64,000 nt of DNA from Sinomonas atrocyanea (GTDB lineage Bacteria; Actinomycetota; Actinomycetes; Actinomycetales; Micrococcaceae). The position numbers and the translations under genes are program-made. Where the stretch lies: assembly GCF_030811715.1 (NCBI RefSeq), contig NZ_JAUSRH010000007.1, positions 1 through 64,000 on the forward strand. Reading direction: 5' to 3'. Below, one piece after another: positions 13,772-56,752 of this stretch (positions within the stretch are counted from its first letter, which is position 1; every line of letters begins with the position of its first letter). A model generated the notes under the pieces. The model saw nothing but the letters and a program-made list of their open reading frames with translations. It did no database searches and was not told the DNA's origin.

Positions 13772-14075
13772 GCCGACGTCACCCCGTGGACCGCCGGCGT
13801 CACCCCGTGGGACCGCCACGTCACCCCGCAGGGCCGGGACGTATCTGCCAGTGTGCGGTTGATGCGGGTTCCTGCGCTCAGCACCCGCGTCAGCCACACA
13901 CTCGTGGCGGTCTGGTCGCCGATTCCGCGGACGACGACGAGGGGCCGCCTCGTGCTGTCCGGTCCGGCAATCCCCCGTCGTCGTCCTAACACCCGACCTC
14001 GCGCACCCACGGCCCGACCTCGCGCACCCACGGGATGACTTCGCGCACCCACGGGGTGACCTCGCGGGTCTCCGG
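13772..14075. repeat. family A repeat array, intergenic copy 1
   Basis: This gene-free stretch holds three units with core GTCACCCCG and roughly 21-base spacing at 13772-13840. Four units of the opposite sense (ACCTCGCGCACCCACGG, some ending GGGGTGAC) lie at 13994-14075. Between the arms an interrupted hairpin pairs GGACGACGACG at 13929 with CGTCGTCGTCC near 13976-13986. Together the arms form a long inverted repeat. Related arrays are at 52639-52743, 53196-53300 and 56622-56752. I see no coding potential here. Confidence 0.8.
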
Positions 14076-51912: not shown

Positions 51913-54183
51913 GTGGGGCCCTCCGTCCCGGCGCGCGTGCCGTCCGTGATCCTGCTCGACGGGAGGTCGGGCGCGGGGAAGACGTCCCTGGCCGTCGAGC
52001 TCGCGGCGGCGCTGCGCGAGCACCGCACCGTCACCCTCGTCCACCTCGAGGACGTCTACCCGGGGTGGGACGGCCTCGCCGACGGCATCTCCCGGTGCGC
52101 CGCCCACGTGCTCGCCCCCCTGCGCCGGGGCGAGGAGGCCCGCTGGCGCCCGTGGGACTGGGAGCGCGGCGCCGACGGCCCCGAGCGCCTGAGCGAGCCC
52201 GCCGACGTGGTGATCCTCGAGGGGGTCGGCGCGGGCGCCGCTCCCCTGCGCGCCCTCGCGGACGCGGTGGTGTGGGTGGACGCCCCAGCAGACGAGCGCC
52301 GGCGGCGCGCCCTCGCCCGGGACGGGGACCTCTACGCGCCGCACTGGGACCGCTGGGCCGCCCAGGAGGACGCCTGGCTGGCGCACGACGACGTCCCCGC
52401 GGCCGCCGCCGTCACCGTCGCCTCGCCCTCGGGCACCGAACGGCCCGACGGGCTCGCCGGCCGGGTGCTCGCCGCCCTCGCCGGGCTGCCGTCGCTGTGG
52501 GGGCTCCTCGCGCCCGAACGCTCCGCGCGCGAGTCCGCGCCCGCCGTCGTCCGTCGACTCAAGGCGGCGCCCGATCCGGAGCGGCTCTTCCGGTCGCTGT
52601 TCGGCGCGTCCGCGGCGGCGGTCTGGCTCGACTCCTCCGACGCCGACGTCACCCCGTCGAACGCCGACGTCACCCCGCCGAACGCCGACGTCACCCCGCC
52701 GAACGTCGACGTCACCCCGTCGAACGCCGACGTCACCCCGCGGAACCACTTCAGCGTCATGGCGGACGACGGCGGGCTGCTCGGGCGGCGCATGGCACAC
52801 CGGCGCGGACGGACCGAGGTGGTCCACGGGCCCGCGACGGACGCGCCGGTCTCCGTGCGCTCCGACATCCCGTTCTTCCGCTGGCTCGACGCCGAGTGGG
52901 GCCCCGGCCAGGCTGCCGCGGTATCGGGGCTCGAGTGCGGGTTCGCGCTCGGGTGGCTCGGGTACCTCGGCTACGAGCTGAAGCGGGAGTGCGGCGGATC
53001 CGACGTGGACCCCGGGCTGCCGGACGCCCAGCTCGTCTTCGCGGCCCGCGCAGTGGTCCTTGACCACGCGGCGGGCGAGGCTTGGGTCCTGGCCCTCGAC
53101 GCAGAGGACGCCGGACCGTGGCTCGACCGGGCTGTCGCCGCCGTCCGGGAGTGCGCGGCGGCACGTGAGCGCAGCGCCGCGGCGCGCGAAACCCCGACCT
53201 CGGCACCCCACGGGGTGACCTCGGCGCCCAGCGGGGTGACCTCGGCGGCCCACGGGGTGACCTCGGCGGCCCACGGGGTGACCTCGGCGGCGCCGCCCGC
53301 CTTCACCGCCCGGGACACCGCCGCGGAGTACATGGACAAGGTGCGCGCGGCCCAGGCCGAGATCGCCGAGGGGAACACGTACGAGGCCTGCCTCACCACC
53401 ACGCTCGAGGCGACGGTCCCCGCGCAGGGCGACCGGCCCGGCGTCGTGCCCCTGGACGTCTACGGCGCGCTCCGCCGCCGCAGCCCGGCGCCGTTCGCGG
53501 CGTTCGCCCGCTTCGGGAGCCTCGCGATCGCGAGCACCTCGCCCGAGCGCTTCCTGTCCGTCGCGGCGGACGGCGGGCTGCGGGCCGAGCCGATCAAGGG
53601 CACCCGCCGCCGCTCACCCGGCGGGTCGCCGGAGGACGCCGCCGCGGACGAGCGAGTGCGCGCCGAGCTCGCCGCGAACCCCAAGGACCGGGCCGAGAAC
53701 CTCATGATCGTGGACCTGCTGCGCAACGACCTGAGCCACCACGCGGTCCCGGGGTCCGTGCGGGTGTCGCGGCTGTTCGCCGTCGAGACCTACGCGACGG
53801 TCCACCAGCTCGTGAGCACCGTCGACGCCCGCCTCCGCCCGGGCGCCTCCCGCGCCGAGGCCGTCGCGGCAGCGTTCCCGCCCGGCTCCATGACGGGCGC
53901 GCCGAAGATCAGCACCATGGCGATCCTGGACCGGCTCGAGGCGGGCCCGCGCGGCGTCTACTCCGGGGTGATCGGCTACTTCTCCCGCACGGGGGCCGCG
54001 GACCTCTCGGTGGTGATCCGCACCCTCGTGATGGACGCCGCGGACGACGGCGCCACGCGCCTCACGCTCGGGGTGGGCGGTGCCGTCGTGGCCGACTCAG
54101 ATCCCGCCGGCGAGCACGACGAGATCCGGGCCAAGGCGTTCGCGGTCCTCAGCGCGCTCGGCTCGGAGTTCCCGGAGGACTGA
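51913..54183 (+). CDS. pabB: P-loop kinase-like domain fused to aminodeoxychorismate synthase component I (PabB)
   Basis: A 756-residue fusion. Residues 1-200 hold a nucleotide-kinase-like P-loop (LLDGRSGAGKTSLA) with a downstream VVILEGVGAG. The remainder is a chorismate-binding enzyme with TYEACLTTTLEATV, SPERFL, the catalytic EPIKGTRRRSPGGS, DRAENLMIVDLLRNDL, PGSMTGAPKISTM and AEHDEIRAKA-like ends. It makes 4-amino-4-deoxychorismate for folate, with pabC nearby at 55697. Two low-complexity peptides interrupt it: five DVTP heptads at about residues 243-277 and four to five GVTSA heptads at about 429-463. They are encoded by family A repeats. The start is probably GTG; later GTGs are possible. 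Confidence 0.88.
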   Translation: MGPSVPARVPSVILLDGRSGAGKTSLAVELAAALREHRTVTLVHLEDVYPGWDGLADGISRCAAHVLAPLRRGEEARWRPWDWERGADGPERLSEPADVVILEGVGAGAAPLRALADAVVWVDAPADERRRRALARDGDLYAPHWDRWAAQEDAWLAHDDVPAAAAVTVASPSGTERPDGLAGRVLAALAGLPSLWGLLAPERSARESAPAVVRRLKAAPDPERLFRSLFGASAAAVWLDSSDADVTPSNADVTPPNADVTPPNVDVTPSNADVTPRNHFSVMADDGGLLGRRMAHRRGRTEVVHGPATDAPVSVRSDIPFFRWLDAEWGPGQAAAVSGLECGFALGWLGYLGYELKRECGGSDVDPGLPDAQLVFAARAVVLDHAAGEAWVLALDAEDAGPWLDRAVAAVRECAAARERSAAARETPTSAPHGVTSAPSGVTSAAHGVTSAAHGVTSAAPPAFTARDTAAEYMDKVRAAQAEIAEGNTYEACLTTTLEATVPAQGDRPGVVPLDVYGALRRRSPAPFAAFARFGSLAIASTSPERFLSVAADGGLRAEPIKGTRRRSPGGSPEDAAADERVRAELAANPKDRAENLMIVDLLRNDLSHHAVPGSVRVSRLFAVETYATVHQLVSTVDARLRPGASRAEAVAAAFPPGSMTGAPKISTMAILDRLEAGPRGVYSGVIGYFSRTGAADLSVVIRTLVMDAADDGATRLTLGVGGAVVADSDPAGEHDEIRAKAFAVLSALGSEFPED
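52639..52743 (+). repeat. family A array inside pabB, arm 1
   Basis: Five consecutive 21-base units of the form AACGCCGACGTCACCCCGNC lie in frame in pabB and encode NADVTPP-type heptapeptides. Units differ by one to three bases. The array keeps the reading frame because 21 is a multiple of three. It is inverted relative to the array at 53196-53300. Confidence 0.9.
53196..53300 (+). repeat. family A array inside pabB, arm 2
   Basis: Four full and one partial 21-base units of the form GACCTCGGCGGCCCACGGGG lie in frame and encode TSAAHGV heptapeptides. The unit is close to the reverse complement of arm 1, so the two arms flank 452 bases of the PabB N-domain coding sequence as an inverted pair. 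Confidence 0.9.
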
Positions 54184-56621: not shown

Positions 56622-56752
56622 CCGCCGAGGTCACCCCGCCGGACGCCGAGGTCACCCCGCAGGCCGCCGACGTCACCCCGACCTCGCGCACCCACGGGGT
56701 GACTTCGCGTCTCCGCGACCCGACCTCGCGGACCCACGGGGTGACTTCGGCG
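56622..56752. repeat. family A repeat array, intergenic copy 2
   Basis: Three units of CGCCGAGGTCACCCCG at about 56622-56681 are followed directly by inverted units (CTCGCGCACCCACGGGGTGA) to 56752. The arms thus abut and can fold into a long hairpin. It fills the 3' side of pabC and the 5' side of mmsA, so it could act as a terminator. No gene is seen in 56612-56856. Confidence 0.85.

Follow-up and report, generated by a model that had tools for sequence, protein, structure and literature searches.

A 21-bp repeat of Sinomonas genomes with convergent tandem arrays at gene ends and two in-frame arrays in pabB

Introduction

The pabB gene of Sinomonas atrocyanea holds two arrays of a 21-bp unit, in opposite orientation and both in frame, and similar units lie between genes elsewhere in the window, i.e. 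the whole 64,000-nt stretch of DNA analyzed here. This raises the question whether the encoded heptads belong to the protein or whether a repeat of intergenic DNA has settled in an enzyme gene, and in the latter case what kind of repeat this is.

Results and Discussion

Two in-frame arrays in the linkers of pabB

The pabB ORF (51913..54183, + strand) encodes 756 aa with an N-terminal kinase-like domain, Anth_synt_I_N and a chorismate-binding domain. The array in linker 1 (52642..52746, + strand, sense to pabB) consists of five 21-bp units, in which GTCACCCCG starts at 52648, 52669, 52690, 52711 and 52732, i.e. in steps of 21 bp. The array in linker 2 (53192..53288, − strand, antisense to pabB) consists of four exact 21-bp units (53205-53288), with GTCACCCCG on the − strand at 53211, 53232, 53253 and 53274, again in steps of 21 bp, and of a partial fifth unit (53192-53204) where GTCGGGG replaces GTCACCCC. 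TRF called a period of 21 for both arrays. The five forward units and four to five reverse units that the original prediction had placed at 52639-52743 and 53196-53300 were thereby recovered within the borders given above. Both arrays keep the pabB frame and encode the heptads NADVTPP/S (ADVTPSN etc. in another register) in linker 1 and GVTSAAH in linker 2, at about residues 244-278 and 431-459. This is outside every Pfam match of PabB (AAA_18 at 13-137, slightly under cut-off; Anth_synt_I_N at 341-390; Chorismate_bind at 471-741), in agreement with the earlier view that the DVTP and GVTSA heptads are in frame and not part of known domains. The alignment to 8hx6, the best solved relative, starts where linker 1 ends, at residue 277. 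A uridine-kinase/AAA-like N-terminal domain precedes the synthase (window 51913-52640), and this domain could be aligned in Sinomonas and in four loci from other genera.

No tandem heptads in 12 PabB loci of other genera

We collected 30 PabB loci from 58 matched genomes, where three of the 15 loci from other genera were dropped as their hallmark motif was not found. Tandem heptads were present in five of 15 Sinomonas genomes and in none of the 12 remaining loci from other genera with a recognized hallmark motif, which argues for a DNA element rather than an old protein repeat, as had been proposed. Linker 1 carries heptads in the host genome (G000), G084 and G122, and linker 2 in G000, G122, G129 and G121; in related species the same two linkers are occupied by 0 to about 9 heptads, and by eye these linkers are the most variable stretches of an alignment of eight PabB sequences. 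That the heptads are in frame and recur in the same two linkers of several species would fit functional protein repeats of PabB. We consider this highly unlikely, since they are lacking in ten of the 15 Sinomonas genomes as well as in the 12 loci from other genera, and the same DNA is found between genes and, in more than one frame, in unrelated genes. In G128 the query matched pabB (L043, C1:3643216-3645347) in two frames with a switch near linker 1, so this gene looks frameshifted at the repeat linker, or the assembly is in error.

A family of dispersed 21-bp units

The window contains 20 matches to GTCACCCCG, compared to 1.85 expected and a maximum of 5 in 100 shuffled sequences. Genome-wide, the host has 60 sites with two cores 21 bp apart (33 forward, 27 reverse) and none for the reversed-pattern control, so the predicted repeat family is real, with dozens of copies. 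When the gap was left free between 1 and 31 bases the count was still 60, and thus all core pairs in G000 are spaced by 21 bp. The consensus unit, built from 144 units of G000 and 98 of G122, is SSCGAVGTCACCCCGTGKGNS (21 bp). Over 75 arrays in 41 regions the spacing was 21 in 234 of 241 cases, in chains that allowed 20-22, 41-43 and 63 and prefer 21, so that other indel sizes break a chain uncounted; the free-gap counts, as judged on the sites listed, have no bias toward 21. Neighboring units in these arrays show 765 differences, a mean of 3.3 of the 21 positions.

The 12-nt tails are similar within arrays, unlike the unique spacers of a CRISPR array. At core+11, 125 of 143 G000 units have G and 107 of 133 G122 units have T. 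Such species-typical tails suggest that units may be exchanged or spread between loci. Single units have no conserved fold: in three of four typical units the z-score against shuffles was −0.30, 0.58 and 0.04, and the 5-bp stem of the pabB linker 1 unit (z −2.45) is not common to other units. A REP-like comparator gave −2.88 in the same single-unit fold.

Arrays often lie downstream of genes and mostly face each other

The 41 regions were chosen for holding arrays, and genes were called by our own codon-usage script and not by annotation; with this scope, the 75 arrays divide into 55 intergenic and 20 genic ones. Five of the latter are within the first 10% of the called ORF and may precede the true start. 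At least one G000 and one G122 array (L206, L229) apparently lie in the same gene, so the counts are not fully independent. A gene 3' end is beside 51 of the 55 intergenic arrays and within 40 nt of 30 of them, of which 26 have the sense orientation relative to this gene and 4 the antisense; at all distances 35 are sense vs. 16 antisense (n = 51). In sense orientation, 25 of the 55 start 0-17 nt past the stop codon. Arrays were present in 18 of 54 convergent gaps, 15 of 186 tandem gaps and 4 of 91 divergent gaps (summed by hand in the chosen regions). The arrays in genes use two frames when sense (9 and 2) and two when antisense (6 and 3), and the third is unused (n = 20); for antisense arrays, this third frame contains TGA.

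Other dispersed sequences were also observed. The motif GCACGACGGCG or GCACGACGCCGGCC is often found 3' of arrays (L204, L221, L226, L231, L235), and it is also present without an array in G084 or G128 (L214 and L203 loci). A further dispersed repeat, AGAAGTGCACTTCTCGCC with variants, follows position 4157 of L214 in an intergenic region and is found at the same locus in G084 and G128.

Intergenic inverted arrays of the pabB unit, as originally predicted, were confirmed at two places in the window. At 13772-14066 three units on the + strand (13772..13834) face three on the − strand (14004..14066), one with a GTCGGG core variant. At 56624-56751 the + arm of three units (56624..56686) starts 12 nt past the stop of a class IV aminotransferase gene and is followed after 2 nt by a − arm of three units, one of them diverged (56689..56751). 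Among 26 pairs of neighboring arrays at most 1.5 kb apart, 23 were convergent, 1 divergent and 2 on the same strand, i.e. 24 of 26 were inverted. A convergent pair reads GTCACCCCG towards CGGGGTGAC and often lies directly 3' of genes. The convergent share was 8/9 below 60 bp, 8/9 at 60-300 bp and 7/8 at 300-1500 bp. This polarity is not explained by hairpin formation alone, as inverted repeats can pair equally well whichever way they are ordered.

Position and order could reflect a selected RNA device at gene ends, in which the hairpin of the paired arms ends or protects transcripts from both sides. The sense arrays just past stop codons and the enrichment between convergent genes are in line with this, as is the strong predicted folding of the pair at 56624-56751 into a single hairpin (z −5.2). 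The arrays of pabB are also predicted to pair, over a distance of 458 nt (z −5.9, 20 shuffles). This pabB pair is intragenic, however, and unpaired arrays exist. The same gene ends are free of arrays in relatives with about 95% identical coding DNA (see below), and an ordinary terminator-like hairpin lies ahead of the array both at the gene before 13772 and at L213, so the arrays are not needed for termination at some loci. Furthermore, the tails of the two arms at one locus often differ by eye, and arm-to-arm pairing as a selected feature was therefore not supported. Taken together, a selected RNA device is possible but rather unlikely.

Units are gained and lost between close species

G129 and G121 differ at 275 of 14168 positions outside the arrays (1.9%, i.e. 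they are about 2% apart). We compared them at 13 anchors, which are 12 independent loci, and gaps split by the alignment were joined before counting. Ten of the 12 loci, pabB among them, differed by 21, 42 or 63 nt and two had no unit change; other gaps in or at the arrays measured 52 and 396 nt, and small ones 1 and 3 nt. Copy number consequently shifts mainly in 21-bp steps, which bears out the expected expansion in multiples of three, and the comparison of the two assemblies shows that units are gained and lost in the arms. Within arrays, changes affected 32 of 965 sites in the core together with CGA, compared to 50 of 713 in the remainder of the unit (Fisher p 0.0008), and both parts changed more than the flanks.

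The best coding anchors of G084 and G128 are about 95% identical to G000, and for 16 loci compared with G084 (15) and G128 (16) the arrays were usually shorter, diverged or absent. The array at L214:4010 is in neither relative, and in G084 the gap 3' of the class IV aminotransferase gene is free of arrays. A few are equally long in the relatives, e.g. the diverged G128 units at L213 and L216. One enzyme gene has four in-frame units in G000, two diverged units in G084 and one in G128, and seven units are found in what appears from the flank to be the same gene of G122. An intergenic repeat can thus inhabit enzyme genes if the length of its unit is divisible by three, and the arrays offer a fast-changing marker set for Sinomonas, stepped by 21 bp.

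A second family has the same core, period and order

Among the 15 Sinomonas genomes, four are rich in the GTCACCCCG family, and a fifth is rich in another unit of 21 bp. A looser pattern matched in ten of the 15, with 90 to 182 matches in G006, G122, G121, G129 and G000 and at most 13 in the others, counts that include overlapping readings of both strands. The exact core with a free gap gave 60 in G000, 43 in G122, 36 in G129, 38 in G121 and 2 in G006. Of 120 genomes drawn from the family of the host, five of them Sinomonas, four matched: three Sinomonas and, with a single hit, one of another genus. No such repeat family is named for Sinomonas in the titles or abstract beginnings of the literature found.

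The second family, in G006, has the unit GTGACCCCGCAACGCTGGGAG, which on the opposite strand begins CGGGGTCACCTCCC, with 162 matches at free gap; those listed are 21 apart except three. Both families contain GGTCACC, and their flanks differ. In the first 28 loci of G006, oriented by GGTCAC, all 58 spacings were 21, pairs were convergent in seven cases, divergent in one and on the same strand in one, and 10 of 14 arrays near gene 3' ends were sense.

A period of 21 bp is not a general law. Samples of 400 kb, taken at even spacing from G128 and G126, gave no peak at lag 21 and contained tandem repeats of many other periods, e.g. 18, 19 and 22. The same 9-mer is spaced by 17 bp upward in other phyla. 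A G122 sample placed between known arrays had a raised baseline, above which lags 21 and 42 stood out slightly. In G126 we also observed two adjoining, inverted 22-bp tandem arrays with the common core CCACTCGTCG (L328:17483-17725), the same inverted-array plan with a different unit and period.

As 21 bp are two helical turns, the arrays are candidate iteron-like sites at which a putative DNA-binding protein would read GGTCACC once every two turns. The exact spacing in intergenic DNA is compatible with such binding and so are the common core, period and order of two families with different flanks, none of which is proof; the core is also slower to change than the tail. On the other side, 21 is not universal in the genus, given the other periods in two relatives, and the matches range from 0 to 182 between species, and we find this reading unlikely. 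Iterons of replication origins are tandem units of about two helical turns; unlike these, the Sinomonas arrays are scattered across the chromosome and also lie in genes. The GGTCACC core is also reminiscent of PhoP/MtrA-type boxes, but these have an 11-bp step, which does not fit.

Possibly, though we hold it to be quite improbable, the putative factor would read GGTCACC per two turns with polarity, and convergent arrays would be paired boundary marks at gene ends. If so, the logic would be comparable to that of convergent insulator sites, a single factor would have recruited both families, and in pabB one such pair would lie inside a gene.

A REP-like minisatellite as the most likely explanation

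To place the repeat we compared it with known systems. MIRU/VNTR of mycobacteria are intergenic tandem units of about 50-77 bp with strain-variable copy number. The Sinomonas arrays share the intergenic tandem units and their variable number, and whole-unit differences between close relatives, at 10 of 12 loci, are those of a minisatellite/VNTR, although the unit is shorter and the arrays form convergent pairs, which are not known from mycobacterial MIRU/VNTR. 

The layout is that of the GTAG/CGTC REPs as described in PMC3733652: short, interspersed, mostly intergenic sequences near 3' ends (here 55 of 75 arrays are intergenic), often as inverted dimers, which are frequent here too with each arm being an array, and sometimes intragenic. 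According to that source, most conv-REPs of other species lie no more than 20 bp from a gene 3' end, and CGTC dimers are mainly head-to-head and CGTC clusters rare. Unlike REPs as portrayed there, the Sinomonas unit has no conserved hairpin, three of four units folding like shuffles instead of forming the stem of a palindrome, and its arms are tandem arrays with an exact 21-bp period. Of the REP tags, GTAG is not in the Sinomonas consensus and CGTC is in only some units; the base before GTC is C in 33% of G000 units and 4% of G122 units. A Y1 (PF01797) transposase was found in none of the 15 Sinomonas genomes, with a positive control in 5 of 14, so mobilization by a RAYT was not supported; CGTC families without a dedicated transposase are also reported (PMC3733652).

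That a repeat tolerating coding DNA is unusual, as originally claimed, was not fully supported: the expansion in multiples of three stands, but palindromic repeats within coding genes are known, with Rickettsia RPE and intragenic REPs as examples (PMC3733652). PARCEL elements are tandem DNA repeats that encode a 25-residue protein motif in varying number, the proteins are often membrane-targeted and a spread by horizontal transfer has been proposed (PMC2996958). Like these, the present units are tandem, protein-encoding and variable in number, whereas they are mainly intergenic.

The repeat is most likely an interspersed, REP-like minisatellite in which tandem arrays make up the arms, and it resembles known bacterial gene-end repeats. 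To the full reading, a minisatellite specific to Sinomonas, with the layout of a REP family and most likely a tolerated passenger in pabB, we give about an even chance. Within an arm, slippage or unequal exchange would create new units, and units may also move or undergo conversion between loci, as the species-typical unit variants indicate. Copies probably concentrate at gene ends and linkers because other places would be purged. In mRNA, the paired arms can fold into long hairpins, with possible effects on termination or on the stability of 3' ends. The near-absolute convergent order, which is also seen at 300-1500 bp (7 vs. 1), does not follow from a passive repeat as such, and neither do the strict 21-bp spacing in non-coding DNA and the GGTCACC, period and order that the second family, with other flanks, has in common. 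In both families, which differ in their flanks, the convergent order is a rule that holds for arrays up to about 1 kb apart.

Tandem units in other phyla

Matches at 21 bp in other phyla were imposed by the search pattern; many are REP heads and some resemble coding repeats. In Candidatus Binatia OX638375 (L098, L099, L138, L174 and others), tandem GTCACCCCG units, whose tails of ~12 nt are specific to the locus, terminate in a full REP-like hairpin such as GTCACCCCGGGCTTGACCCGGGGTCC, and the spacings are variable, many of them 19-23, as would be expected of REP heads that stutter together with their flank. Short tandem stutters, often of 17-23 bp, also accompany REP-like heads in other phyla, and therefore the amplification of arms of gene-end repeats may be general and overlooked.
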